This document shows, piece by piece, positions 7,312 to 26,201 of a stretch of DNA of 64,000 nt. Each line of letters starts with the position of its first letter. Position 1 is the first letter of the stretch. The position numbers were made by a program, and so were the translations under genes. The notes below the pieces were generated by a model that worked only from the letters and a program-made list of their open reading frames with translations, ran no database searches and had not been told where the DNA came from. This DNA is from Haematococcus lacustris. Lineage: Eukaryota; Chlorophyta; Chlorophyceae; Chlamydomonadales; Haematococcaceae. The stretch lies in NCBI GenBank assembly GCA_030144725.1, contig JASKMD010000004.1:1360911-1424910 (forward strand), in the 5' to 3' direction.

Positions 7312-8841
7312 CGACCCTGGCAGCCTCTGACCCACAGCCTGCTGGCAGACCCCTCCCACGGCCTCAGCACGTGGGTCATCACCGACCCCACCGCCCCCCC
7401 TCGCGAGGCATCAGCCCGCGGCTGCAAGCTCACGTGGCGGCCCTGGCTGAGCTCAAGCTGTTCCGTGCGGTGCCCCCCGCTGGCCAGTCCTTCTTCTCGG
7501 TGCTGGCGGAGCCGCTGTGGTACAACGCGCAAGTCCGCATGAACCCAGCAGCGAGGGAGGCAGCAGCTGAGCAGGGTTGGACCCACGTCCGCCACGCGAG
7601 GGAGGCCCTGCATAGCCCCCAGCTGGAGGGGGAGGCTCGATGGGCTGCCGACCTGGTCAGGGCTTGCCTCCCCGAGCCCTGGCAGGGCATGGTGGACCGC
7701 CTGCAGCCTCCTCAGCCGGAGTGGGAATGCCTGAGGGTTGGGCCAGGGGTGGGGTTTGTGATGCGGCGCCCCCCCCTGCTCCAGCCCTCCCACTGGGTGG
7801 GCCCCAACGGCCGCCTCTACCCCCTAGACCCCACAGGGCAGGGGCCCCTAGGAGCTTTCTGGGCGGAGGGAGGGGCGGCCTGGGAGCCAGCAGCGGTGGC
7901 CCGGCTCAACAAGCCCAGCTACAGGCTGACTCCGGAGGAGCGAGCCACGCACCTCCGCCCTCTACCCGCCCAGCATCACGTGGCGCAGGAGCAGGCTCAA
8001 GGGCAGGAGCAAGGAGGAGCCAGGGCGATTGGCAGGGGAGGGGGGCGGGCAAGGGGGCGGGGCGGGGGCAGGGGGCGAGGGCGTGGAGGAGGTGGAGGGC
8101 GTAGGGGCGCAGGGGGCGGAACGGGAGGGCAGGCTGCCGACCCAGCTGACGAGGGGCCTAGCACCTGGCCTAAGGAGGAGTGGCTCTTGGGCCCCTAGGC
8201 TCACCTGCAGCTGGACCCTCAGGTGTGGGGCATGGGCACCACCACCCTCCTGGACTTCTCGGTCAAGCATGCCAGGGTGCGCCTCCACCAGCTCCAGCGC
8301 GTCAGTGCCGACCCCCTCTACCCACCAGGTGGGGGCCTGTGGCCAGCGCTGTAGGGTGTGCGCCCCCCCCGGGCAGCGGGCGAACCGGAGGTGGCAGCGG
8401 TGGCTGATGGGGCCCTGCGGGAGCTAGAGCTCAAGTGGGAGGCCAGCGCGCAGCAGGTGGCAGGCCAGGGGGCAGCGGGGGAGCGGGAGCAGCAGGGCAG
8501 GGATGTGGAGGAGCGGCTCCCCGAGGAGGTGCAGGGCAGCCAACCGCCTCGCTGGCTTGACACCTCCGCCAGGGCGCACCAGCGACCCTCGCCGCAGATG
8601 AGGGCGGCCCAGCAGGCCGAGCGGCAGTTGGAGGCCCAGCAGCGGCGTGGGGGCAGGCAGCCAGTTGCTCAGCCCGCCCCCCGGTCCGACACCGTGGACC
8701 AGCTGGCTGTGGGTGTTCAGGCGGGCCAGCCGTGTGCGAAGGTGTGGAAGGAGCTGCTAGACCCCACCCTCCGTCGGGAGCATGTCATCGTGGCCTGGCG
8801 GGTGCTTCACGCCAGCCTCATGGTGGGGGCCTTGTGGGGCC
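7312..8841 (+). mobile_element. L1-like LINE, copy B, left part
   Basis: The sequence is homologous to the LINE units from CGACCCTGGCAGCCTC to TTGTGGGGCC. The same copy resumes at 25031 with GGGCCACATCCTC, so the 16-kb minus-strand element between them is an insertion flanked by duplicated GGGCC. The copy is truncated at both ends and has no poly(A) of its own. Compared with other units it carries TGG-to-TAG stops at 8196-8198 and at about 8352. Confidence 0.9.
7312..8841 (+). pseudogene. L1-like LINE ORF2 fragment between RT and zinc knuckle
   Basis: It covers the region downstream of the reverse transcriptase: a conserved segment (SFFSVLAEPLWYNAQVR, WAADLVRACLPEPWQ), a Gly/Arg-rich linker around 8030-8130, and the coiled-coil-like Gln/Glu/Ala segment before the zinc knuckle. 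Two in-frame TAG stops replace tryptophan codons. The reading frame runs into the inserted element's tail after LWG. It is non-functional. Confidence 0.85.
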
Positions 8842-8945
8842 AGAAGAAGAAGAAGAAGAAAAAGACTACTCCGGTATTCACCGGCGTGCATTAAGGGAGG
8901 AGCTACCGCCTGGGGCGCGGCCTGCTCCCACCATCCAGCCAAAGA
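8842..8945 (-). other. RandI 3' terminus: two hairpins plus TTC-rich tail
   Basis: On the minus strand the element ends with a GGAGC...GCTCC hairpin and a CCGGT/ACCGG hairpin with a four-base loop, then a pyrimidine tail of TTC repeats abutting the GGGCC target. The last ~70 bases before the tail are nearly identical to 20681-20750 (plus strand), the 3' end of the 599-bp element. This shared end is the likely template-recognition structure for the reverse transcriptase. Confidence 0.75.
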
Positions 8946-8958
8946 AGAGGCGTCCCCC

Positions 8959-10303
8959 CTACCCTCCCCCCCCTTTGGTAGCCCTGAGTCTGTAGCTTGT
9001 CTTTGCAATAGAGTGGGCTGCCTCCATAGCGTGCCTAGTTAACTTGTTGAGCAGCTTGGTAGTGTTGGCTTGTGTGATCCCGAGGGTTAGGAGGTGTTGC
9101 CGTGTGTGCGCTTCGTAGGTTATGCCCCCTATGCCTAGTAGGATTGGTATGATAGCGACCATATGGTCTTCCTTGCGTATGGTCTCGGCTAAGTGGGTGT
9201 GTTGAGTGAGTGCCTTGTTTAATTGGTCCGTCCACCGTGAGTCCGAGCAGTATTTGATTTCTATGATACAGACCCGCTTGGTGTCCTTGCCGTCCTTGCT
9301 TGCCTTCTTATGAGGGAGCACCATGAGAATATCCGGCCTAGTGGTGTGTTTAGTATCTTCTGGTTTCAGTCCGAGTGTTTGGAGTGTTGTGTGTAGCGTG
9401 TCGCTCGGGAGGTCCACGCTTTCCTTAGCGCCCTTCTCCCAGCTGCCGGTGTCCGCAAAGCTGATGTACCCGCCTAGGGTTCCCTTGCTTATAGCTTTAG
9501 TGATGAGGCGGCCCGCCCCGTTGTGCCTTTCTTGCACCATCGGTAGTGTCTCGCTGCAGCCCGAGAGGAGGTGAGTGGCGCTATCCGCCTCCCCGCAGAG
9601 CGGGCATCGGTCATCAGTCGCCCGTTTCCAGCGCATAGCTAGTTTCTGGTTGTATAGCCCTCCGGTACGATAGAGTAGGGCAGTGCGTTGCGCGTGGGTG
9701 GAGATGTTCGTGTCGATCATCACTCTTTCGCCTGCTCCTTTCGCCGCGGCTTTGGTGATCTCCTGAGTCATCTGGTAGTAGATACTGTCTTGATTGGCAA
9801 GGCCCAACTTGTGTTTGCGGTGCATGTGTGCCCGCACGCTTTGGCGGCAATCCGGCAATGGGGCGGGGGATTCGCCGTCGGCTTCGTTGCTGAGCCAGTT
9901 CTTCGTCTCATTCCGTGTGGTCGGGCTGTAGGCCGGGGTGTTGGCGAGCTCTGGGTGTAGCGCCGCATACTTGGCGAGGGCATCGGCGCCTTCGTTGCCG
10001 ATGATGCCCGAGTGGGCCCTGACTTTGTAGAAGTGGATCGTGGCGGGGCTGTCGATGATGAGGGTGGCGATAGCGGTCAGGATGTCGTTGTGTCTGTGGG
10101 TGATGAGCGACATCGGGTTAGCGAGGGCTCTGCGGATCTGGTAGAGGGAGCAAAGGCTATCGGTGGCGATACGTTTGGCCCCCGCTTTGAGTGCCGCGTG
10201 TATCGCCGTGAGTTCCGCCCTGTTAATGGTTTTGCTTTCTGGGTCGTTTAGGGCGGCTGTGATGAGGACGTTGTTCTCCGGGATATCTGAGGTATAGGGA
10301 AAA
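8959..10303 (-). pseudogene. RandI polyprotein C-terminus: RNase H (part), CCHC finger, restriction-like endonuclease
   Basis: Reading on the minus strand from 10303, the frame resumes the RNase H fold after the 3-kb insertion. It shows RAELTAIHAAL (catalytic Glu), RIATDSLCSLYQIRRAL (Asp) and HSGIIGNEGADALAKYAA (C-terminal His/Asp). A CCHC finger follows (CPLCGEADSATHLLSGC, about 9555-9612). Then comes a PD-ExK nuclease with RPD at 9331-9339 and EIK at 9253-9261, the restriction-like endonuclease of early-branching non-LTR elements. The stop is next to the 3' terminal hairpins. This segment itself looks intact. It is a pseudogene because it is cut off from the rest. Confidence 0.88.
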
Positions 10304-10749
10304 ATATAGGCGTCCTTATTTTCTCATAATGGAGGCATAATAGGGGCATAATAAGGGGTCAACCGCGCCGGTACTCAGAGCTTACAATCGCACGCTTACA
10401 AAAACGTGATGGCCTGATGCTAATGTGACCCTGCAGACGTCGATGGCCTAGCGAGTTGCACGAAATGAATGAAAGAAATCAATCGCTGCACCATTCCAAT
10501 GCCAAGCCAAGCATGAAGCCAAGCATGAATGCAACATGCCCTGGTGCTGGCACACACAGCTGCTCATTGGCAGAGAGGAAGGCCATGGCATCAGGGCAGA
10601 CTCCCTGGGGAACGTATGGCCATGGGGCGGGGGAAGGGTACAGGGGCCGCATGACTAGGGCCAGGCTGTATTGAACATGGCGCGTTGAAGCCCCCGATAG
10701 GAGCGGAGACTGCCTGCGGGCTGTTTAGGACATAGAAGGACATAGCATA

Positions 10750-10909
10750 GAACATAGCAGCGGCAGCAGGGGCAACAACGGCAACACTGGCAGGAGCAGA
10801 AGCTGCAGCAGCAGCATCATCAGCATCAGCGGCAGCAGCAGCAGTGGCTACAGCGGCAACACTGGCAGCAGCGGCAACACCGGCAGCAGCAGCAGCAGCA
10901 ACTCGCGCG

Positions 10910-10940
<31 letters not shown>

Positions 10941-11400
10941 CAGTGGCAGCAGGGGCAACAACGGCAACACTGGCAGCAGCAGAAGCTGCAGCAGCTTCAG
11001 CATCAGCATCAGCAGCAGCGGTAGTGGCTACAGCGGCAACACTGGCAGCAGCGACAGCAGCGGCAACACCGGCAGCAGCAGCAGCAGCTCGCGCGGCAGC
11101 AGCAGCAGTGGCAGCAGCAGCTCGCGCGGCAGCAGCAGCAGTGGTGGCATCAGTGGCAGCAGGGGCAACAACGGCAACACTGGCAGCAGCAGAAGCTGCA
11201 GCAGCAGCAACAGCAGCAGCAGCAGCAGCTCGCGCAGCAGCAGCAGCAGCAGGGGCAACAACGGCAACACTGGCAGCAGCAGAAGCTGCAGCAGCATCAG
11301 CAGCAACAGCAGCAAGCGGCAGTGGCTACACCGGCAACACTGGCAGCAGCGACAACACCGGCAGCAGCGGCAACACCGGCACTGATGGCAGCAGCAGCAG
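10750..11400. repeat. GCA-rich minisatellite inside the 3-kb insertion
   Basis: Degenerate GCAGCA-type repeat with recurring modules of the type GGCAACACTGGCAGCAGC. All frames are open as Ala-, Ser- or Leu-rich runs because of base composition. I do not regard any of them as genes. Confidence 0.85.
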
Positions 11401-12600
11401 CAGCGGGATTGCGCTGGTTGGTGATGCGCAACATGAGTGATGTGGCGTTACACTTGCTCTTGTGCATCTGTGCAATAGAGCAAGCATCAGCAAGTGGTGG
11501 CAGAGCAGTGCACGGGGCACGTGTGGTGGGCAAGGTGTTGTAATGGTGACAGAGAGCGCAGCACTCACTTGGCACAAACATGCACATAGCACCACACAGC
11601 AGCTTGGGCCTCCTGTAGTAGGCGTCATGGAAATGACGAACGCGCGCAAAAGGGTCTGATGGTAGAGTTGAGATGAACCTCCAACTGCACAGTACAGATT
11701 ACAGCACGTGAGCACATGTTGCAACATGTATTGCAACAGATATAGGCTGCTCAGCATTCCCGCTACTGCACATGCTACCACGGTGTTGCTGCAACACCAC
11801 TTGCAATTCTCACCTGCTCGGGTGTTGCGTTTGTCCCCATAATGGGGAACTTCTTGTCGTTGAGCGTCGGAACTGCAAAGATGGTAGCGTCCTGAGTCGC
11901 AAGACCCTCGCGCTGCTGAAGAGCTGTGATTAAGGGCTGTGATTAAGCAAGCCAGCCGCCACCACCTTGACCATTGACAACGACCACCTCCTGCGCGTGT
12001 GCCGCTGTCATACTTGCATCTGTCGCTACGTTGACATTGGCAATGGGTTGACCATGTGGTAGATGCGGGCACTGGAGCGAACCGTTTGGGCTGCCAATAG
12101 CCAGGGTGGACGCCACGGCTTGCCACAGAGACACGGTGGCATTGGTAACGAGATGGCTGAGGCTCAAAGTACGGTGCAGCTTTGGTCAATTAGCTCCCAG
12201 GTGCCTAACTGTGCTATCTCGCTAGATGTTGCAGGGGCGCCACTGCTCGCTGCTGCGTCGCTGCCGCATGTGATAGCTGAAGCTGACTTGCGGCCTCCTG
12301 ACAATTGAGTAGCATTTCCAACGTGGCTGCCTGGCTGTGCGGCTGTCGGGCTGTGCGGTTGTCTGGCTGTGCGGCGGTCTCTGTCGACTTGACTGTGGTT
12401 GACCTCATCTTGACCTCCTTTTGAATCGGTCACACGTCAGTGGCCGCGCAAGTCGTGCAAGCCGCACAAGCTGTGCAAGCCGCGATGGCGTGCAAAGCAG
12501 TCGGGTAGAATAAAGCCCTCAATGGGGTAAGGAATGGCTAGATGAGGCTGTCGGCAAGTCGTGCAAGCCGCTTAAGCCGAGCTACTTATAAGTTATAACT
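11401..12600. other. Non-repetitive middle of the 3-kb insertion
   Basis: Moderate GC, no recognisable protein. The longest frame (minus strand, about 11326-12189) is Cys/Ser-rich without a domain and overlaps the minisatellite. Short patches of GCTGTGCGGCTGTCGG-type near-repeats lie at 12330-12380 and of AAGCCGCACAAGC-type at 12445-12490. Confidence 0.4.
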
Positions 12601-13025
12601 GCCAGGCTGGCGACCGGCAAAACATAATGGTCGAGCGGCAAATGATAATGGTCGAGCGGCAAGTGCACTTTTTGATAATGGTCGAGCGGCAAAGTGCACT
12701 TTTTGATAATGCTCGTGCGGCAAACGAGCGTTGGTCCAGCAACTGCGTTGCGAATGCGTTGTTCGTCGTGCTGGTCAACGTGGGATAGGGGCGGTCAACG
12801 TGGGACGGGTACAGCTACTACTATTGCTACCTCTACGTTGCTCAAGCGACTCTACGCGATAGCTTAGCGGACTTGCTACCTGGCTGGCATGTATACTTAT
12901 AACTGCCAGGCTGGCGACCGGCAAAACATAATGGTCGAGCGGCAAAGCATAATGGTCGAGCGGCAAAACATAATGGTCGAGCGGCAAGTGCACTTTTTGA
13001 TATTGGTCGAGCGGCAAGCACGCTT
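12600..13025. repeat. Clustered CATAATGGTCGAGCGGCAA repeats
   Basis: A ~20-base motif (ATAATGGTCGAGCGGCAA) occurs about eight times in two clusters, 12625-12715 and 12925-13015. Each cluster is preceded by a shared block beginning CTTATAACTGCCAGGCTGGCG. Several copies are joined by GTGCACTTTTTGAT. It lies near one end of the 3-kb insertion, so it may be subterminal binding-site repeats or a small satellite. Confidence 0.8.
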
Positions 13026-13302
13026 CTCGCAATACGTTTCGGGGTAGCCTTTGCCTGGCTGTGTCTAGCGGCTGTGTCTAGCGGTTGCATACAGTGTTGG
13101 TCAACGGTGGCGGTTACGGGAATGCGAAACCTCAGATATACCAGATAATCGCCGTTACCTCTCGCATTATGCGAACTAATGGTATCGTCCTCGGCTCTGC
13201 TACCATACATCCCTCGGCTGCGCCTCGGGATGTATGTCCGCGCCACCTCGGCCTCGTCCATTATTTTCGCATAATGCTCTCGGACCGCCAATTATCTACT
13301 AC

Positions 13303-16300
13303 ATATAGACCCCCGCCCCGACGCTCGCCGGGGTTGCCCCCGAGGTCTTTATGCAGCTGCCGTCCGTGTACGCGAGCGTGGCCCATTCGGTGATGGCCAT
13401 CCGTGGCTGCGTCGTGGAATGGTGCGTGAGTTGTTCGTGGCTGCGTTGGTGCCCCGAGGTGGGGAGGTCCCTGTCCAGCGGCAAGCGCATATGTTGTTTG
13501 TGACCGCTAGGGGGTGTGGCTGGCTGGCTTTGATTCGTTGGTCTGTTGCGGATTGGGTGTGTGTCTCGTTGAGGGTGGAGGGCAGTGGCAGTGCTAGCCA
13601 GCCAACCTTGGGGGTTGCCTTTGGTGACGAGTTGTTGTCCTGCTGCATTCCAAATGACGTAGATGTGGAGTTTGGCGTGCTTGCCTGGCTTGGGGCATCT
13701 GGTCTTGGTGGGGGGTATGCTAGCCAGGTGCTGGCAGTACTCAGGGTACCGCCGCAGGGTGTCAATGTGTTTAGGGTAGGAGATGCCCTTTTTCCCAGGG
13801 ATCAGCATGATGGTTGCCATGGCCTCCTCTTGAGTAGCTGAGTGTATAGCATGGTTAACGCATTTCAGTGCCACTGCATCATCTGCCGGTACGTTCCATG
13901 TGGATAAGCCAGTGTGGCGAACGAGTAGGCAGTTGTGGTGTGCCCCAAAGGCCGTGTCGTTGGTGTCAGGGCTCCAATAGGTGGTGGTTTCTGGTCTAAC
14001 TGTGAGTGGATCAGCCCATCTTTGCACGGTGCTTGGAAAGCTTCGTGTGGTGTGTAGGGTGTTAAGGGCTTTGTCTTGTGCCCCTCTCATGGGGTGGTGG
14101 CTGCTCTGTGCGTCCTGTCTCCTTAGTAGGGCCACTGCCTCTGTGGCCAGGTTGCGTGTGTGTGGTGTGTGTTGTAACCAAGCGTGTAGATGTTGGTGCT
14201 GGTCTTTTGTCAGGAGGCCAACTGTGCGACCCGACTCGTCGTGGACCGTTACGTGTTGCACTAAGTCGTGCCGTGGCATGATGGGCTCCCCCGTGCTGAG
14301 GCTCATCGCGGGGGCGGTCATGTGGGGGTGCAGTTGGAGGAAGGTTTCGCAATTGCCCGTCCCGACGATGTCCGTCTGCGGGTTGATGGGGTAGGTGTGA
14401 AAGGTGGCCTTCGAGTGCAGGTTGTTGCACCGGGGTAGCCAGGTGTGCGGGTCCGGTAGTCCCTGTCGGGTGTGGGCCGGCAGGTGCGCGTCAGGCCTCG
14501 CATGTCTGGCCTCTTGTATCTGCCTGTTTTCCTCGTCGTAGTCGTTGCGCTTTGCCATGTAGTCCAGGTGTGCCGTGATGAGCGGCGCCGGTTCGAGAGT
14601 GGGGTGCCAGTGTACTCGTATGAGGTCCGAGTGCGCTGACTGGCGCATGGTTGTCTTAAAGTCATTGCTGCCGAACTTGCATATAGGGCACAGCCAATAT
14701 CCTGGTTCCTTGTGTCCTGACAAGTGGGCTTCATCTAGGCAGGCTGGGTGGTAGGCCCTCTTGCAGTTATGGCACGTTGGGCTGTCTCCTCTTGGTAGCC
14801 AGCACAGCTCACAAGTGCATACGTCTTTAGCCTCTTCCCTGCTGATGGTCTCTATGTGTGTGGGTGTATAGCCTTCTTCTGCACATAGTGGTAATGCCCA
14901 TCTATCTATGACTGTGGGCTTCCAATGCACCTTGTAGTAGTTTTCCTTGTTGATGCCGTCCCATTGCCAGCCATCTATGCTGGTAATGGCCTCTTGGTGG
15001 CCGTACATGGCCCCAAGTATGCAGCCTAGGTTCTTGGATTTACATCGGCAGGCTTTATCCACCTTCCAGCTGGAAAGTCCTGGGAGGTCAAGGCCTACTA
15101 TGCGCACTATATCTTGCGGAATAGTTTGTGTCTGTCTGCCCTCATTGTTCCGTTTCGTGCCCGCCTTGGGTGGGTTGGGCTTCGTTGGGGCCGATTTTGT
15201 TGCTCGTTGCTCTCGTTTCAGCAGTCGTGAGCTCGTCCGAATGGCCTCATGGACTGCGGGTGCCGCTGCGGCCCGGTCCGCCGTTGCTGGTTGCGTTGCG
15301 TGCATGACCGCATACGCTTTCATATCCATGTAGCGAGCTCTGGTGTCAGGCACTGCGGGTGTGGGCGCAAGTTCCGTGAGGCCCGCGGCCCAGGGTGTGA
15401 TTTTGCGTTGGTCGGGCGGGAGGTCGAGTGATGTGTTGCGGCTGTCTCGGATGGCACTCGTTGCGGTCGCATCTGGGCATGAGGGTTGGGCCGCCATGGC
15501 CGCGAGTTTGTTGAGGGCGATGATGTGCTTCTGCTTGACTTTTTTCCCGTACTTCGATGTGAGCATGTTACCCGTGATGATGTGTGTGTTGCCCTTGCAG
15601 CTGAGCTCAGAAGCATGCGTGATGCCTAGGCTTTTGAGGCAGGTGATGCTGGCACTAACGACATCGTGTGCTTGGGAGCTGCTGGCCTGTGTGATGAGGC
15701 GGCCGAGTGTTTGGCACTCTTCATGGTAGAGAGGTAGCCCCTCTTCCGTGGCCGACAGCCCGGATATAGAGGAATAGACCAGCTGCCTTGCCCTAAGGGT
15801 GTGATGGAGAAGGGTGAGAATGCGGTGTCCTTGTGTGCTAGCCTGGGTACTGAGCCATGTGATTTGTTTGTGCAGCATGCTCCTCGAGATGTGGGCGTGT
15901 GCCACATCTGTGGACTGGAGGCTGTGTGTGAGGGCTGTCGTGTTGCGGGCGTGGTACTCTTGGGCAGTAGAGCTAATGCCTATGCCTAGCTTGCCAGCGT
16001 CTTCTCTGATGATGGCGTTGGGCGTTCCCAGGGGGAGTCTGAGTTTGAGCTTAACGCATTGATTGATGGATCTGTCGTACAGCTCAAGGTCCCCTGGGGT
16101 GCAGGGCACGGCACAGAAGCTGTAGGCTAGGCTGGGTATGACGGCGGTGCGGATGATGTGTATGGCCTGTCTGGCACTGGCAAAGGAGCGTCTGAGTCTC
16201 TCGAGTTTTTGGCGGAGCTGGGTGATCATAGCGGTGTGTTGTGGTTTCCAGTCCAGCGTCATGGTGATGAGCACACCCAGGTAGGTGAATGGTGAGGTCG

Positions 16301-16391
16301 GGCGGTGGTAGGTGACGGGTTTCCCTTGTAGGCTGACGGTTCGGAGTTGTTGGCTGGCCCGCTTATCCGCTTCGGCCGCGTTGCTGCACAT
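13303..16391 (-). pseudogene. RandI polyprotein middle: RT thumb/connection, PHD finger, RNase H start
   Basis: The minus-strand frame starts just after the lost YxDD box (SDWGHLI, then MCSNAAEADKRASQQLRTV). It continues through the RT thumb (FTYLGVLITMTLDWKPQ) and a long region of about 700 residues. That region includes a canonical PHD finger at about 14679-14821: C-x2-C, CHNC, YHPAC, then WLCPIC (C4-H-C3). The frame ends with the start of RNase H (AYTDGSCIK, SVGAGVY), where the 3-kb insertion cuts in. PHD fingers bind histone tails in host proteins. Here one could steer integration or chromatin tethering, which is inference. The upstream frame overlaps at 16259-16391, marking a frameshift. 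Confidence 0.85.
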
Positions 16392-18511
16392 GCCTGTTTC
16401 GACCGAGTGATGGAGCGCCGCTGTAGCGAGGGTTTTACTGTGTGAGATGATGAGGTGACCCCAGTCCGAGAAGGCTGAGAGTTTGTCCGCTTGGCATAGT
16501 CGATGCTGCTGACGGTGGCGCGTACCCCGCTGTCGGCCGTTGCTGATTTGAATTTATAGCCCCTCGCGCCCACTTGCAGCCATCGCAGGAGGGGTTCGAT
16601 GTAAATGAGAAATAGGAAGGGCGAGAGAGAGTCGCCTTGTATGGTGCCCCAGTTGACGGGTACCGGGTCAGTATGGCCGTACGGGGTTTTAAAGCGCGTT
16701 GTAGCGCCCGTGTATAGGTCCTTTACTGCGTCCGTCGCACTGGTGAAGTCGACCAGGAGCGCGTAGATATCTGCCTTGGCCTGTTTAGCATCCTCAAGGG
16801 CCATGACAAGCATCTGCAGCTGTTGTGTGGTGTTCCTGTGGGAGCGGAACCCGGCCTGGTTCTTGCTGAGCATCCCATTAGCTTCAGCATACTCAGACAG
16901 CGTCTTGGTAATGAGGCTGGTCCATAGCTTATAAACGGTGTTGGCTAGGCCCACTGGTCTGTAGGCATTAAGATCTGTTTCCTGGCCCTTGTCTTTGTAA
17001 AGCAGGCAGGTGTCACTGGTTTTCCATGTTCTGGGTGTGCAGCCTGTTGCCCACATGATGATGAAGAGCTGGTGGATGGTGTCCCGTATCTCCCATGGCA
17101 GCATCTTGATGATTTCATTTTCTACGCCGTCTGGTCCCGGGGCCTTGCCTCCCGCCAGCCTGCTGAGGCATTCCTGGAAGCCTGCCTTGTCCATGATGGC
17201 TGTGTGCAGCCAGTGTATGTTTTGGCATGCGTGCAGTGCGAAGGCGTCGTCTGCTTTGGCGCGAGCCCACGGGTAGTTTCGTGTCTGTGTAGTAATGTAG
17301 TGGCCAGTCTTGGGGGTCGGGGCCGACAGCTTCTGCCCATATGCGGCGGTGATTATCCGGTTGAGGTCGGCAGGGGCGGTGCATATGGTTTTGGTGTCAG
17401 GATCAGCTAGCGCCTGCAGGCCTTTGTGGTTGGTGCGGGATGGGCGTAGGATACGTTTGTTAGCCTTCTTGGGCTGGGTGCTGATCAGTTGTTGCATTCT
17501 GGCGCGAGCTTGTGCGATGGCGAGTGCGGAGTCATCGTCGTCTAGTTGGTGGATTCGGTCGCGGTACGAGTTGGTCAGCCGGGCGAGCGCGGCCTGCACG
17601 TGGTTTTCGGTTGGGTCTTCGCCCTGGCGCGCTTGCACCGCCTCCCTTGTTTCCGCATTCGTCGTATCTGTCTCTGGGACAAGTTCATCGATGGTTGGGT
17701 GCACGTTGTTTTGCTTGAAAAACACTCTAGCCTTCCGGCTGAGTTCTCTGGTGGTTTTAAGCTTTTTGCCTAGTGCCTGTCTAATCCTACACATGGTCCT
17801 GCGTTGGTAGTGTTGGCCTCCCCTTGTTAGGGTCTTAGTATTGCATGTCTTTAGAGCTGCCGTCCTGCAGGTTTGTAGGAGGTGCGTAAGCATGGTGGCT
17901 GCGGTGTCTACAGCTTCCCTGGCCGGGCGTCCTGCCACTGATGTCAGGCGCTGTGGTTGTTGAGGGTTGGTCTTGTCAAGTGTAGCCAGGTGGTGGGTAG
18001 CCTCTGTGTATATGGGGGCTAAGAAGGCTGTCAGTTCTGCGTGCAATTGTGGGACGCCTGAGCTGGGTTGTTGCACTGCCAGGCGGTATGCTTCCCTGTC
18101 TTTATTGGTAACGGGGGTGGTGAGGATGGTGTGGCTGTGCTTCAGTGGTTTGTGTGGGGCTGCCAGGTCTATGCCCAGGCGGGCTGTATTCAGTGCGGCG
18201 GTGAGTGGCTTGTGGTCGCTCAGATAGGCGTTGGTATCGACGTGCGTGCGGTGCTCAGGACCGTGTCTTGCGTCGCGTGTTAGGATAGCGTCGATGCGGC
18301 TGTTGCAGTGCGGTTGCTGGTAGGTCCAGGCCCGGTCGCCGGGATCAGCTTCCTTCAGTTGCATTTCTGTGGCGAAGCCCCTCATCATGCTGTCTTGTGT
18401 GTATTCAGTGTGCTCGGAGCGATCCTCTGTTTTCATCGTGGCGTTGATATCGCCCGCCAAGATGAGTGAGCCGGGCAGGTGGCCCGTGGCTGTTCGTATA
18501 TGCTCTTGCAT
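16259..18511 (-). pseudogene. RandI polyprotein: APE endonuclease (C-terminal half) and reverse transcriptase
   Basis: It begins inside the APE domain (ILAGDINATMKTEDR, then RIDAILTRD and YLSDHKPL, the C-terminal APE signatures). The reverse transcriptase follows: GGKAPGPDGVENEIIK, YRPVGLANTVYKLW, NQAGFRSHRNTTQQL, motif A (LLVDFTSATDAV) and motif B (GTIQGDSLSPFLF). The segment between motifs A and B is about 20-25 residues shorter than usual. At about 16497 the YADD box is reduced to DYA, and the frame is lost before DKLSAFSDWG. Catalytic aspartates of motif C are therefore missing. The protein cannot polymerise. Confidence 0.88.
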
Positions 18512-20157
18512 TTTCTCGCGCAGTGAGAGCGCTTCGCCATTGGATCCCGACGGCCAGTACGTGGCGATGATGGTGAGCTGTTCGCACTGGTGTTGGTTGA
18601 GGGTCAGGATGACGCATCGTGCATTTACCTAGGCTAGCATCGATGCTCGGTGAGAGCATAGTGGCTTGCATTTGGATGGCTAAGTTGTGTTTGATGCCTA
18701 TTAGTACTTCACTGTGGCCTCTGTGTCGGTGTGTCGTATAATCTGGCATGACTCTCTTCAGCCAGCCAGAGCCTGGATTGTTGCTCCTGGGCTGGGTCAT
18801 GGTTTCAGTTAGGATCAGGATGTCCGGGCTGTGCTGGTGCACAAGGTTGAGGACGTCGTTCCTGGACCTATGAAGGCTTCTAACGTTCAGGGTCGTTAGT
18901 GTGATATGCTGTCGATTGTGTGTTGGTTGTGGCTGCCGGGTTGGCAAGGTGCTGTGTTGTGGGTGTGGTCCTGGGTGCTCAGTGGGGTATCGTAGGTTAT
19001 CAGTGGGGGGTGGCGGTGTTGTGGGGATGGCGGCGGGGGGTGGAGTGGGGGCTGTGTTTAGGTATCTGTACATCAGGGTCTGTGTGTGCGAGTCCTTGGT
19101 TTGCGCTCTTGGCTTGGTCCGTTTTTTGTCTACGATAGTGCCCGATGATGTGGGCCGTTTACTGCTACTTGACCGGTCTTGTAGAGTGGGGAGAGTGACT
19201 GTGGGGGCGACCTGGCGCAGTCGCGGCCGGGCCTGCTTGTCTGTCGGGTGGGTGTCTGCTGTGGCTGTTAGTATGCGCTTGTAACTCGCTGGTTGTGCAG
19301 TGGGTAGCGGCCGGTGTGTTCGGGGGGTGTGCGCGGGTTGTGTGCCCAGGTCTTGGGTAGTAAGGTCGATGTGGGTGGTACGTAGATGTTGTTCCAGCTG
19401 CTCCGTTGTGGCGCGCCTTGTAGGGTCAGCTAGCCAGCATAGTGGGTGGATGAGGTTAGTATCAGCCGCGTCGCCCTTTTTAATTTGAACGAGCATGCCA
19501 TGCAGCTGGAGCTTGTCTTCCGGGGTGTCCAACCGGCGTGGGTGGCCGCGTTCCGAGTCCAACCAGTGCCATGCGTTGTTAATGTGGCGGATGGTGGTAG
19601 CGTGATTGTGAGTAATGAGGATGGCGGCTGTGTTAGTGTAGCTGTCCGTCTTGCCCGTGAGCGTGGTGAGGAGCTCGGGTGTGATGTTGTTGTTGTAGGT
19701 GGTTGTGGTTGGAGGGCATAGGTGGAGGTCCTTGTGGTGGTGGTATAGGTAGTGGTTTACGGTGGAGATGGTGAAGTTGCCAGATTCCTCGTAGATGTGT
19801 GGGAGGCTGCTACGTAGTGGTATTATCCTATGCTCCTGCCTTGCCTGTTTGGCTAGGTCCTGGATGTGTGTAGTAAGTGCTTTGCAGTGTGTGATAACGT
19901 CCTCAGGCCTGATCATTGGTTTTCCCATGGCCATGTTAAGGGCGTGCACTAGTTTGTACACACATTGTTTGTATTGCCTTTCCATGTAGCAGTGGGACGG
20001 GTTCTGGTTGTCTTCTTTGTGGCTGATGATGTGACTTATACCTTGTCGGGTGGTGGCCATGGTTTGGGCTGGTGTAGCTGCTGGGTCAGGTGCAATGACG
20101 AACACCTCGTGGAAGTGATTCGTGTAAGAATGCGACAGCTCGCAGATGGCTATAGCT
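18405..20157 (-). pseudogene. RandI polyprotein: second protease-like region and APE endonuclease (N-terminal half)
   Basis: After the 599-bp insertion the minus strand continues into a second protease-like unit. VHALNMAMGKPMIRPEDV (around 19917-19972) parallels AHSLNNAAGKPWVKPEDL of the first, and NHATTIRHINNAWHWLDSERG-type sequence (around 19545-19630) aligns without gaps to the first copy's His/Asp block. At the first copy's Cys position this one has Lys, with a Cys three residues earlier, so activity is doubtful. A Pro/Thr-rich linker follows, then the APE N-terminus (LTTLNVRSLHRSRNDVLNL, PDILILTETM, about 18750-18905). A frameshift near 18620 moves into the next frame. Confidence 0.8.
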
Positions 20158-20166
20158 GTCGGAGTC
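20158..20166. repeat. Target-site duplication, left copy (GTCGGAGTC)
   Basis: The nine bases GTCGGAGTC occur here and again at 20766-20774, exactly flanking the 599-bp plus-strand element. Removing the insert and one copy rejoins the RandI protease region. Confidence 0.88.
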
Positions 20167-20254
20167 GGGGTTGGCGGTGAGGCACCTCCACGCGGTGGCC
20201 CTGGTAACAATCCGAGTTGACTTCGGTCGCACGGATTGGCTAAGCTACCTCACC
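20167..20254 (+). ncRNA. HDV-like self-cleaving ribozyme
   Basis: The sequence fits the nested double-pseudoknot of the hepatitis-delta-like class. P1 is GGGGU (20167-20171) with GCCCU (20198-20202), including the typical G1-U wobble. P2 is GGTGAGG (20176-20182) with CCTCACC (20248-20254), seven perfect pairs. P3 is CACC/GGTG (20183-20186/20194-20197) enclosing loop UCCACGC (20187-20193). P1.1 is GG (20203-20204) with CC of that loop. P4 is AATCCG/CGGATT (20209-20214/20232-20237). J4/2 reads GGCUAAG with the catalytic-type cytosine at 20240. P1 is short and wobble-rich. Such ribozymes free the 5' end of several non-LTR retrotransposons. Confidence 0.85.
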
Positions 20255-20449
20255 ACCGCACCCAGCGGTATATAAATTGGGATGCAACGGGAAAGCCTTC
20301 CCAGGCTTGAACGGGCACCGCTTTGTCCAGCGGAATACAAATGAGGTCCGGGTGCCGCACACGACCGCTGCGGGTCACCGAGCTGTTGTGGAGTTGCTGG
20401 CGTCATCAAGGAGGGAGCAGAGCTACCTCAACGCGGGACGTTGGCTGAC

Positions 20450-20486
20450 AGCTGAAGTTCGGACTTTTGGAGCCTGAACTTCAGCT
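20450..20486 (+). other. 11-bp perfect hairpin in the 599-bp element
   Basis: AGCTGAAGTTC at 20450-20460 pairs with GAACTTCAGCT at 20476-20486 around a 15-base loop. Role unknown; it may be part of the element's RNA structure. Confidence 0.7.
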
Positions 20487-20680
20487 TTTAGTGCGACATC
20501 CGGCGGACAAGGCTGGAATTGCTCTCGTCAACGAGGAGAAGAGATAAGGCCAGCTGCCGAGTGCACTAGTCTTTGCTCCTCTCATGCCTCTTTGTTTGCC
20601 TTGGGTGCTAGCTGTGGTCTGTGGCTACAGCTAGGGCAGCTTGGTGGGGACATGTCCAGCCTGTGTCCAACGTTTGGAGG

Positions 20681-20765
20681 TGGGAGCAGGCCGCGCCACA
20701 GGCGGAAGCTCCTCCCTTAATGCACGCCGGTTTGTACCGGAGTAGTTTTCTTTCTTTCTTTCTTT
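20681..20765 (+). other. RandI-type 3' terminus of the 599-bp element
   Basis: It shares the GGAGC/GCTCC and CCGGT/ACCGG hairpins with the minus-strand end at 8867-8940. The four-base loop of the second hairpin differs (TTGT here, GAAT there) while the stem is unchanged. It ends in TTTC repeats abutting GTCGGAGTC. Confidence 0.8.
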
Positions 20766-21742
20766 CTGTCGGAGTCTAGGAGCTTCCACTGCCCACCCAA
20801 CTTCCTGAGCGCCATGCTGTGGCCGTTTGTTTTGCACAAAAAGTTGAGTGTGGCGTACTCTATCGCTATGGTGTCGAAGTTGTCGTCGTTCCAATCGTCT
20901 GTGGTGCGTAGTTGAGCGACACTCTTAATAGTGAGGCCGTATTTGTATCCAAGGTATAGGTGAATGACCTCGTCGCTGAAAGCACCCCCGTCCCCGCGTG
21001 CGGTGTGCCACGCCTTCTTGTCGCCTTCGTCGTGCAATGTTTTCTGCCAGGTTATCCAAAAATTATGTAGGTCCTCAGGCTTCACCCATGGCTTGCCAGC
21101 TGCATTGTTTAGGGAGTGGGCCTGGCAATTGCGGTTTACCTGTGCTTCAAAAAACCGGGGGTTAGGGTTAACTTCTGGATGATGCTCCTCATAGTGGGAT
21201 GGGCCTGGGTTGGCTTCAATATCACCTCCTGCTAGCAACAGCCAGCCTATATAGAGCAAGTAGATAGCACTGTAGCAGGGGGACATGACGCCAAGGCAAT
21301 GGGCTAGCTTGGTTAAAAGGGCTGGGATGCCCATGCGGGTAGGCAGATCAGGCATGCGGTTGATGCGCAGCTTGTGTATTGTGTACCGTTGCAAAGTCGC
21401 GTTGTATTGGTGAACTAGGATGCTGGTGCTTTCTGGGTTGGATGTGTAGTGGCCATGCGACTGCCAGGTAGTGAGGGCTGTTGACAGGTGCATCAAGGCA
21501 GTATGACGTTCCACTGAGCCATCAAGGTAGAGGTACAGGGTGTAGGCAGATCCAACAGAGATCGCTCTCCATCTCCTGATCTTCTTGAGGTGTCGTCGGA
21601 GGCAAGCTCTAGATTGGGAAGGGGTAATAGCAGGGGGTGGGGGGGTGGGGAGCTGGCCCCTCATAAGAGCGATGCTGGCGATAGCAATGGCGATGTGTGT
21701 CATCCAACTGAGTGTCTCGTGTCCGTGGTCATAGCTCGGCAT
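20766..21742 (-). pseudogene. RandI leader protein, 2A-like site and Josephin-like cysteine protease
   Basis: Continuous minus-strand frame. A leader starts at the ATG at 21740-21742 (MPSYDHGHETLS), runs about 180 residues with basic stretches and ends in a hydrophobic segment (YLLYIGWLLLAG) directly before GDIEANPGP. Downstream comes a domain with NRNCQAHSLNNAAGKP (Cys codon 21125-21127), GAFSDEVIHLYLGYKYGL, and FLCKTNGHSMALRKLGGQW followed by LLDS. That is the Cys / His / Asp order of Josephin-like cysteine proteases. A cysteine protease is a known part of Dualen elements. The frame is cut after LLDSD by the 599-bp insertion. Upstream it stays open through the 114-bp repeats, so the true start is uncertain. 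Confidence 0.8.
21200..21229 (-). promoter_or_regulatory. 2A-like translational recoding site (GGDIEANPGP)
   Basis: It fits the 2A consensus D-(V/I)-E-x-N-P-G-P exactly and is preceded by a hydrophobic helix-like stretch, as in 2A sequences of other non-LTR elements. 2A makes the ribosome skip the Gly-Pro bond, which would release a ~180-residue leader from the protease-polymerase part. The motif is seen. Activity is inferred. Confidence 0.85.
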
Positions 21743-21835
21743 GGTGCTAGTGTCTATAGTGTCAGCTGTCTGAATGTGTCGCGAGGTGCCTCCCCTGACT
21801 CGTTGGTGTAGTTGTCCATCCTCTGCCTTGTTGTT

Positions 21836-24800
21836 GTAGGCATGGCGGTACCTGATGCGGGGCAGAGCACCAGCATGGGCAGCATGCATGGCTGCTCCTG
21901 GCAGCGTCATGGGCTGAACACATCGCTGGACACTCTCTGCCGTGTTATTGTAGGCATGGCGGTACCTGATGCGGGGCAGAGCACCAGCATGGGCAGCATG
22001 CATGGCTGCTCCTGGCAGCGTCATGGGCTGAACACATCGCTGCACACTCTCTGCCGTGTTGTTGTAGGCATGGCGGTACCTGATGCGGGGCAGAGCACCA
22101 GCATGGGCAGCATGCATGGCTGCTCCTGGCAGCGTCATGGGCTGAGCACACCGCTGCACACTCTCTGACTTGTTGTTGTAGGCATGGCGGTACCTGATGC
22201 GGGGCAGAGCACCAGCATGGGCAGCATGCATGGCTGCTCCTGGCAGCGTCATGGGCTGAACACATCGCTGCACACTCTCTGCCGTGTTATTGTAGGCATG
22301 GCGGTACCTGATGCGGGGCAGAGCACCAGCATGGGCAGCATGCATGGCTGCTCCTGGCAGCGTCATGGGCTGAACGCATCGCTGCACACTCTCTGCCGTG
22401 TTGTTGTAGGCATGGCGGTACCTGATGCGGGGCAGAGCACCAGCATGGGCAGCATGCATGGCTGCTCCTGGCAGCGTCATGGGCTGAGCACACCGCTGCA
22501 CACTCTCTGACTTGTTGTTGTAGGCATGGCGGTACCTGATGCGGGGCAGAGCACCAGCATGGGCAGCATGCATGGCTGCTCCTGGCAGCGTCATGGGCTG
22601 AGCACACCGCTGCACACTCTCTGACTTGTTGTTGTAGGCATGGCGGTACCTGATGCGGGGCAGAGCACCAGCATGGGCAGCATGCATGGCTGCTCCTGGC
22701 AGCGTCATGGGCTGAACACATCGCTGCACACTCTCTGCCGTGTTATTGTAGGCATGGCGGTACCTGATGCGGGGCAGAGCACCAGCATGGGCAGCATGCA
22801 TGGCTGCTCCTGGCAGCGTCATGGGCTGAACACATCGCTGCACACTCTCTGCCGTGTTGTTGTAGGCATGGCGGTACCTGATGCGGGGCAGAGCACCAGC
22901 ATGGGCAGCATGCATGGCTGCTCCTGGCAGCGTCATGGGCTGAGCACACCGCTGCACACTCTCTGACTTGTTGTTGTAGGCATGGCGGTACCTGATGCGG
23001 GGCAGAGCACCAGCATGGGCAGCATGCATGGCTGCTCCTGGCAGCGTCATGGGCTGAACACATCGCTGCACACTCTCTGCCGTGTTATTGTAGGCATGGC
23101 GGTACCTGATGCGGGGCAGAGCACCAGCATGGGCAGCATGCATGGCTGCTCCTGGCAGCGTCATGGGCTGAACGCATCGCTGCACACTCTCTGCCGTGTT
23201 GTTGTAGGCATGGCGGTACCTGATGCGGGGCAGAGCACCAGCATGGGCAGCATGCATGGCTGCTCCTGGCAGCGTCATGGGCTGAGCACACCGCTGCACA
23301 CTCTCTGACTTGTTGTTGTAGGCATGGCGGTACCTGATGCGGGGCAGAGCACCAGCATGGGCAGCATGCATGGCTGCTCCTGGCAGCGTCATGGGCTGAA
23401 CACATCGCTGCACACTCTCTGCCGTGTTATTGTAGGCATGGCGGTACCTGATGCGGGGCAGAGCACCAGCATGGGCAGCATGCATGGCTGCTCCTGGCAG
23501 CGTCATGGGCTGAACACATCGCTGGACACTCTCTGCCGTGTTATTGTAGGCATGGCGGTACCTGATGCGGGGCAGAGCACCAGCATGGGCAGCATGCATG
23601 GCTGCTCCTGGCAGCGTCATGGGCTGAACACATCGCTGCACACTCTCTGCCGTGTTGTTGTAGGCATGGCGGTACCTGATGCGGGGCAGAGCACCAGCAT
23701 GGGCAGCATGCATGGCTGCTCCTGGCAGCGTCATGGGCTGAGCACACCGCTGCACACTCTCTGACTTGTTGTTGTAGGCATGGCGGTACCTGATGCGGGG
23801 CAGAGCACCAGCATGGGCAGCATGCATGGCTGCTCCTGGCAGCGTCATGGGCTGAACACATCGCTGCACACTCTCTGCCGTGTTATTGTAGGCATGGCGG
23901 TACCTGATGCGGGGCAGAGCACCAGCATGGGCAGCATGCATGGCTGCTCCTGGCAGCGTCATGGGCTGAACACATCGCTGCGCACTCTCTGACTTGTTGT
24001 TGTAGGCATGGCGGTACCTGATGCGGGGCAGAGCACCAGCATGGGCAGCATGCATGGCTGCTCCTGGCAGCGTCATGGGCTGAGCACACCGCTGCACACT
24101 CTCTGACTTGTTGTTGTAGGCATGGCGGTACCTGATGCGGGGCAGAGCACCAGCATGGGCAGCATGCATGGCTGCTCCTGGCAGCGTCATGGGCTGAACA
24201 CATCGCTGCACACTCTCTGCCGTGTTATTGTAGGCATGGCGGTACCTGATGCGGGGCAGAGCACCAGCATGGGCAGCATGCATGGCTGCTCCTGGCAGCG
24301 TCATGGGCTGAACACATCGCTGCGCACTCTCTGACTTGTTGTTGTAGGCATGGCGGTACCTGATGCGGGGCAGAGCACCAGCATGGGCAGCATGCATGGC
24401 TGCTCCTGGCAGCGTCATGGGCTGAACACATCGCTGCACACTCTCTGCCGTGTTATTGTAGGCATGGCGGTACCTGATGCGGGGCAGAGCACCAGCATGG
24501 GCAGCATGCATGGCTGCTCCTGGCAGCGTCATGGGCTGAGCACACCGCTGCACACTCTCTGACTTGTTGTTGTAGGCATGGCGGTACCTGATGCGGGGCA
24601 GAGCACCAGCATGGGCAGCATGCATGGCTGCTCCTGGCAGCGTCATGGGCTGAACACACCGCTGCGCACTCTCTGACTTGTTGTTGTAGGCATGGCGGTA
24701 CCTGATGCGGGGCAGAGCACCAGCATGGGCAGCATGCATGGCTGCTCCTGGCAGCGTCATGGGCTGAACACATCGCTGCACACTCTCTGCCGTGTTGTTG

Positions 24801-25030
24801 TAGGCATGGCGGTACCTGATGCGGGGCAGAGCACCAGCATGGGCAGCATGCATGGCTGCTCCTGGCAGCGTCATGGGCTGAACACACCGCTGCGCACTCT
24901 CTGACTTGTTGTTGTAGGCATGGGGGTACCTGATGCGGGGCAGCAGGCCAGCATGGGCAGCATGCGTGGCTGCTCCTGGCAGCGTGGTGGGCTGAACACA
25001 TCGCTGCACACTCTCTGCCGTGTTGTTGTT
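21836..25030 (-). repeat. Tandem 114-bp repeat array (28 units) at the RandI 5' end
   Basis: There are about 28 head-to-tail units of 114 bp, very similar to one another. At least three variants are interspersed, read on the minus strand as NNTAESVQRCVQ, NNKSESAQRCVQ and NNKSESVQRCAQ. The outermost unit next to the target site (25030) is the most diverged. 114 is divisible by three and the whole array is open in the frame of the 2A leader. The placement at the 5' end recalls promoter monomers of rodent L1 elements. A coding role is the alternative. No CRISPR-like unique spacers are present. Confidence 0.93.
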
Positions 25031-25116
25031 GGGCCACATCCTCAAGGGTACGGCTGCCCCGGGCTCTTCCGCCTGCCGCTTCTGCCAGCCGGGGCACTTG
25101 GAGACCCTCACCCACG
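25031..25116 (+). mobile_element. L1-like LINE, copy B, right part
   Basis: It continues copy B after the RandI insertion: GGGCCACATCCTC through the zinc-knuckle coding region to CTCACCCACGC, where homology to the LINE stops. No poly(A) tail is present, so the 3' end was lost or rearranged. Confidence 0.88.

Positions 25117-26201
<1,085 letters not shown>

Follow-up and report, generated by a model that had tools for sequence, protein, structure and literature searches.

A SINE-like element of the green alga Haematococcus lacustris with a predicted HDV-like ribozyme at its 5′ end and a 3′ end shared with Dualen-type LINEs

The window analyzed here is a stretch of 64,000 nucleotides from the genome of Haematococcus lacustris (308 Mb, 597 contigs), an alga that is grown industrially. 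It contains a SINE-like retroelement inserted into a minus-strand LINE of the Dualen/RandI type (Table 1). The element lacks a sizeable protein frame (the longest frame wholly inside the 601-bp window copy is 66 aa), is flanked by target duplications, and shares its 3′ end with the LINE. The 9-bp duplication GTCGGAGTC grows to 11 identical bp when the CT beside the tail is counted.

Table 1. Features of the SINE, its predicted ribozyme, and the host LINE (positions in the window)
Feature	Position	Strand	Basis
Non-autonomous SINE-like retroelement, 601 bp, (TTTC)n tail	20167..20767	+	Target duplications at both borders; full-length relatives at 98-99%
5′ target-site duplication GTCGGAGTC	20158..20166	+	11-bp match = 20156-20166
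3′ target-site duplication GTCGGAGTC	20768..20776	+	11-bp match = 20766-20776
Predicted HDV-like self-cleaving ribozyme, 88 nt; predicted cut between 20166 and 20167	20167..20254	+	Descriptor match; RF00094 weak match
P1 5′ strand GGGGU (GGGGC in other aligned copies)	20167..20171	+	Fold analysis, copy alignment
P2 5′ strand GGUGAGG	20176..20182	+	Fold analysis
P3 5′ strand CACC	20183..20186	+	Fold analysis
L3 UCCACGC; U and G placed for reverse wobble, CC for P1.1	20187..20193	+	Role by analogy with HDV
P3 3′ strand GGUG	20194..20197	+	Fold analysis
P1 3′ strand GCCCU	20198..20202	+	Fold analysis
P1.1 GG, pairs with CC 20188-20189	20203..20204	+	Pairing demanded by descriptor
P4 arm AAUCCG/CGGAUU, inner GAC-UUCG-GUC	20209..20237	+	Fold analysis
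J4/2 GGCUAAGCUA; C at 20240 = predicted catalytic cytosine	20238..20247	+	Role by analogy with HDV
P2 3′ strand CCUCACC	20248..20254	+	Fold analysis
SINE 3′ end common to Dualen-type LINEs, including hairpin GCCGG-loop-CCGG	20679..20746	+	90% over 83 nt vs 8937-8856 minus; three-way alignment
(TTTC)n tail of SINE	20747..20767	+	Sequence
Host LINE, Dualen/RandI type, interrupted by other insertions	8840..25111	-	Pfam domains and motifs; frame open to 25111 through tandem repeat
3′ end of host LINE, resembles SINE 3′ end	8856..8937	-	BLAST, alignment

In the host LINE, Josephin-like, APE-type endonuclease and reverse transcriptase (RT) domains exceed the Pfam cut-offs, and an RNase H match lies below its cut-off. 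The LINE also carries a CCHC motif and, after it, the PD...E-x-K motif of a restriction-like endonuclease (RLE). PD and E-x-K are both present in seven of nine aligned rows, at identities down to 32%. The Dualen group has been described as encoding APE and RLE (PMC4640811). Roughly 68 nt at the 3′ end of the SINE match the host LINE and also, elsewhere in the genome, a LINE tail left by truncation (L024), the only hit besides simple repeats in twenty 10-kb stretches near RT matches and around the window; the GCCGG/CCGG stem of the hairpin is conserved and its loop is variable. LINE/SINE pairs are marked by such common 3′ ends. A first interpretation from the letters of the DNA alone (the sequence-only reading) had linked the short element to RandI/Dualen. 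At the level of sequence the link is supported, through ∼68 nt in common with the host LINE, which lies in the window as well and has both APE and RLE features; the SINE may be mobilized by Dualen. A search for the 5′ end and the target duplication of the host LINE itself found neither, and the shared-tail pattern had no match in viral or in prokaryotic contigs. An RT family search (best 150 of 4,540 candidates) led to other retroelements, its loci L001 to L010 having no match to the host LINE.

The first 88 nt of the SINE can be drawn as an HDV-like ribozyme, with P1, P1.1, P2, P3 and P4 in nested double-pseudoknot order. In element numbering, the helices are P1 (1-5/32-36), P2 (10-16/82-88), P3 (17-20/28-31), P1.1 (22-23/37-38) and P4 (43-48/66-71), joined by J1/2 (6-9), L3 (21-27, UCCACGC) and J4/2 (72-81, GGCUAAGCUA). 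The core nucleotides (U and G of L3, C of J4/2, and the cut-site G) are all present, and in the RF00094 alignment HDV letters are matched in L3, J1/4 (GGUAACA) and J4/2 (GGCUAAG). Base roles in L3, J1/4 and J4/2 are assumed by analogy with HDV, the C at 20240 being likened to HDV C75/C76. All of the structural claims of the sequence-only reading are found in the letters of 20167-20254: the five helices, the 7-bp P2, the P3 loop UCCACGC, P1.1, P4 and the GGCUAAG of J4/2. The G-U wobble claimed for P1 is there as well, in the window copy actually as two wobbles (G1·U36 and U5·G32). The predicted cut also falls where it had been placed, at the first base after the 9-bp duplication, as the upstream GTCGGAGTC ends at 20166 and the ribozyme starts at 20167.

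Some features count against the fold, namely the short P1 and the G·U at the cut site. J4/2 is about 3 nt longer than that of HDV. P1 is 5 bp, P2 7 bp, P3 4 bp and J1/2 4 nt. HDV-like ribozymes usually have a P1 of 6 or 7 bp, a P2 of about 7 bp and a short J1/2 (PMC4908430); P2 and J1/2 of the candidate fit this description, whereas P1 is shorter. A P1 of 4 nt is mentioned for one R2 lineage (PMC3774820). The best nested fold of the segment is a different structure at −34.8 kcal/mol, pseudoknots being outside the energy model, and both nested halves of the pseudoknot are weaker (P1+P3+P4, −17.5 kcal/mol; P2+P3+P4, −23.2 kcal/mol). An alternative 6-bp register of P2 (GCGGUG/CACCGC) can also be drawn and competes with the 7-bp helix.

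How often such a fold arises by chance was estimated with a structural descriptor, one of the computational checks proposed with the sequence-only reading. The descriptor combines the helices with the core letters and was composed after the candidate had been seen. It has a single match in the 64 kb on both strands, exactly at 20167. Dinucleotide shuffles gave 74 matches in 69 of 800 sequences (59.4 kb, both strands), a chance rate of ∼8 × 10−7 per base, or about one per 1.3 million positions and ∼0.1 per window, and none of these 74 matches combined a P2 of at least 7, a P3 of at least 4 and a P4 of at least 6. There was no match in 36 other loci of the same genome (258,654 bases per strand, of which 248,205 are distinct; three loci are contained in others). 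A match lies at the element start in 20/20 fetched full-length copies. Because the descriptor postdates the candidate, the independent part of this result is that the match falls exactly on the first element base. A relaxed descriptor gave a chance match within the SINE body of truncated copies, and the stricter form was therefore used for the counts.

The covariance model, another proposed check, matches only weakly. RF00094 spans its whole length on the window copy (20165-20252), and its cut site is the element start or at most 1 base away, but the score is only 20.1 bits (E = 2) against a gathering score of 50. Copy L031, which carries the majority sequence of the family, scores 22.2 bits (E = 0.75), with the model displaced by one base; the printed model leaves P2 unpaired. 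The second HDV family, RF02682, gives 14.7 bits on L031, with model position 1 on the first element base. No Rfam family reaches its gathering score in the window. By themselves, the RF00094 scores are insufficient for genome-wide significance: a search of the whole genome yielded nothing at an E of ≤10 (best 86 of 29,492 candidates scored), and the identical search gave below-cut-off matches in 4 of 14 control genomes.

We then considered the copies of the element. A core pattern has 406 matches in the genome, and those listed, a part of them, read as the SINE family; the reversed control pattern has none. A similarity search returned 39 other full-length copies at 98 to 99% among the best 40 of 999 candidates, a list biased toward full-length copies. 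All 39 cover the first element base, with three partial rows besides. The 20 of them that were fetched all begin at the same GGGG, and in 18 of these 20, for which 3′ flanks were available, an exact target duplication abuts the start. The abutting duplications are 10 to 15 nt long, apart from a single 20-nt case where the target is itself repeated. Of the other two copies, L032 shows an inexact 10-nt duplication displaced by two bases, and in L036 no target duplication was found. The 20 include two rows on contig C420 with alignments starting further upstream, and on inspection these also begin at G1.

A further eight copies were chosen for a differing core and fetched at the 5′ end only. Their flanks diverge at G1 in every case (8/8), and L064 and L065 have a common flank, representing one insertion event. 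In total, 28 of the 31 other fetched copies start at G1, and the remaining three (L057 to L059) are a single duplicated locus with a SINE copy 5′ truncated at about base 26. The sequence-only reading had named copies starting upstream of 20167 as evidence that would speak against it; there are none among the 31, and the 28 start at the base equivalent to 20167.

A C immediately precedes the element in 22 of 29 copies (window, L031 to L050, and L064 to L071), or in 21 of 28 when L064/L065 are counted once (P about 7 × 10−7 at 29% C). Fifteen of the copies L031 to L050 have this C, and in 13 of them it lies within the exact target duplication, as it does in the window copy. The excess suggests that the top strand is preferentially cut there, or that a G added to the end of the cDNA pairs with a target C, rather than copying of a cap.

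A uniform start would likewise be expected of an internal promoter from which transcription begins at G1, the likeness to HDV then being a coincidence or a decayed relic. TATATAA occurs ∼100 nt inside the element, along with five A-box-like sites of one mismatch each, and the trypanosomatid Pr77 has been described as promoter and ribozyme in one 5′ sequence (PMC4035085). However, no B box, tRNA or tRNA-like head was found in the SINE, which does not appear to have a classical Pol III-derived head, and a coincidence would have to produce a descriptor match at one given base together with all of the HDV-like letters in L3, J1/4 and J4/2. We regard the promoter explanation as very improbable, and the best reading is that the 5′ end of the SINE is set by the ribozyme, not by a Pol III promoter.

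The family is young: over ∼560 nt, the 20 other aligned copies are 0 to 3 nt away from the majority sequence. The window copy differs by 4 nt and is slightly damaged: C5T turns P1 pair 5, a C-G pair in the majority sequence, into U·G and weakens the helix, and C49A lies in the P4 arm. One may ask whether the ribozyme formerly worked and is now unneeded and merely carried along by copying, as the helix-weakening changes in the window copy and several others could indicate. Against this, the 20 copies have no change in bases 1 to 88 but 20 in the 472 nt that follow (bases 89 to 560; Poisson P = 0.024, a weak difference). The family is also very young, and the exact start is retained in all 20. 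We regard loss of need as very improbable.

Each of the eight copies chosen for a differing core has one to three changes in its first 95 nt. Two keep all pairs (L066 and L068, with U36C), and six break at least one, with no compensatory change: U36A breaks pair 1 in L064/L065, where inner P4 is also broken, and further breaks lie in P2 and P4 (L069), P3 (L067) and P4 (L070 and L071). These pair-breaking changes resemble decay that followed insertion. Among the 28 other copies, no compensatory helix change was found, and because these are nearly identical to one another, within-family covariation is neutral for the fold.

The ribozyme might instead be the LINE's own, with the SINE as a short, internally deleted Dualen LINE of the kind known as a SIDE in R2. 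R2 SIDEs are indeed built in this way, from a ribozyme and the 3′ end of a partner (PMC3414825). The 5′ coding region of the host LINE served to locate LINE copies (best 40 of 147 candidates), and six upstream stretches were fetched; two of the six reach an apparent 5′ start, which leaves this explanation some room. None of the six has a descriptor match on either strand, even in relaxed form, and they match the SINE over no more than 11 to 14 nt (E = 3.2). Furthermore, L053 and L056 have a common apparent 5′ start near GGTTTTGCGAAAACC, which by eye is unlike the head of the SINE, and when the whole window was searched with the SINE by BLAST, LINE similarity appeared at the 3′ end only. For the LINE stretches sampled, an origin by internal deletion seems unlikely.

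Taken together, the element is very probably a SINE that combines an HDV-like ribozyme as its 5′ head with a 3′ end mimicking Dualen/RandI LINEs. This rests on a fold that can be drawn and would seldom arise by chance, on the common start of the copies, their number and their target duplications, and on the 3′ end in common with the LINE. As sequence evidence, a 5′ HDV-like ribozyme is supported, and self-cleavage is predicted. Cutting, read-through transcription and mobilization by Dualen are steps that we infer. The SINE would be transcribed by read-through from upstream, which we propose because the search for a Pol III promoter found none that is convincing. The folded first 88 nt would then cleave the transcript immediately 5′ of G1 and so give it a 5′-OH end at exactly the first element base. 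Dualen reverse transcriptase would recognize the tail and the hairpin of the shared 3′ end and copy the RNA to its 5′ end by target-primed reverse transcription. With a precise cut at G1 and copying to the end of the RNA, each new full-length copy would start at G1 beside a 10- to 15-bp target duplication, would include the ribozyme, and would be independent of any fixed upstream sequence. The same logic of read-through, self-cleavage and target-primed reverse transcription has been published for R2 and its SIDEs (PMC3414825; PMC3774820) and for trypanosomatid elements (PMC4035085).

HDV-like ribozymes at the 5′ ends of non-LTR elements are established for R2, R4, L1 and RTE (PMC3774820) and also occur in trypanosomatid elements (PMC4035085). 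Like the R2 SIDEs and R2/R1 hybrid SIDEs of Drosophila, the algal SINE is non-autonomous and joins a 5′ HDV-like ribozyme to a LINE 3′ end (PMC3414825). In the hybrids, the source of the ribozyme differs from the mobilizing LINE, as may be the case here. The ribozymes of these SIDEs are described as R2 derived and the elements as located at rDNA sites (PMC3414825), whereas the algal SINE has a head without a known LINE source, dispersed insertions and hundreds of core matches. The trypanosomatid L1Tc/NARTc/SIDER elements, short ones included, also carry an HDV-like ribozyme (Pr77) at the 5′ end; Pr77 is described as common to the LINE and its short partners and as a promoter besides (PMC4035085), while the algal ribozyme was not found in the six Dualen stretches examined. 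Relative to the HDV genomic and antigenomic ribozymes and their relatives (RF00094 and RF02682), the candidate has the same double-pseudoknot order, the letters of L3, P1.1 and J4/2, and a cut before P1, but differs in a P1 of 5 bp rather than 6 to 7, a longer J4/2 and a low Rfam score.

Among green algae, SINEX-1, -2 and -4_CR of Chlamydomonas are listed as SINEs whose origin is unknown and whose partners are RandI/Dualen, and SINEX-2_CR has a similar (CTTT)n tail (PMC3747384). The likeness is one of description, and the account in that source mentions no ribozyme in the part that describes them. Tentatively, green algal SINEs of "unknown" origin could form a class whose ribozyme head was acquired independently of the mobilizing LINE: promoterless elements that ride host transcripts, excise themselves and hijack Dualen via a short 3′ mimic. 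In the titles and opening abstract lines of the top-ranked open-access papers, we found no report that links Dualen, algal SINEs or green algae to HDV-like ribozymes. Retroelements headed by such ribozymes are already known, and what appears to be new is the host lineage and the partnership with Dualen. The element would extend the 5′ ribozymes of non-LTR elements to green algae and the Dualen group, and perhaps to a SINE with a head that did not come from its partner. It also suggests, for a family that is young and of high copy number, how a SINE that lacks a Pol III promoter may obtain a precise 5′ end, and this answer is testable.

Pattern searches for other HDV-like families gave 12 genome matches representing three distinct sequences (control, 2), 28 matches (control, 15), and 11 matches (control, 77), one of the last being a copy of the SINE family with GGCGAA. 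Seven of the 28 were fetched and set aside; three were the duplicated 5′-truncated SINE copy, and four had no descriptor match. A small repeat family (C74:763286 and relatives L060 and L063) matches a loose core, TCCTTGG..GGCAAC..GGCTAA, without a descriptor match.

The LINE has several features of its own. Its N-terminal region contains two Josephin-like (ubiquitin protease) matches on the minus strand, at ∼19490-19952 and 20786-21136, one strong (5 × 10−9) and one weak and below the cut-off (0.02). Upstream of the weak match, the N-terminal frame reads GDIEANPGP (21200-21226, minus strand), a 2A-like ribosome-skipping motif. The 5′ coding end comprises a 114-bp in-frame (38-aa) tandem repeat at ∼21830-25030, seen also in L051 (784-1869); L052 lies wholly within or beside this repeat, and the array length apparently varies between LINE copies. 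The RNase H domain is interrupted by ∼3 kb of other DNA with alanine-rich open frames (10113-13299). Seven proteins named as Agrobacterium, Hydrogenophaga or Bosea (P0004, P0006 to P0009, P0015 and P0016), from contigs of 1.3 to 2.1 kb, are 65 to 93% identical to the algal LINE and probably stem from algal DNA that contaminates bacterial assemblies. At 25324-26199, a (CCCATG)n array runs for 876 bp without interruption.
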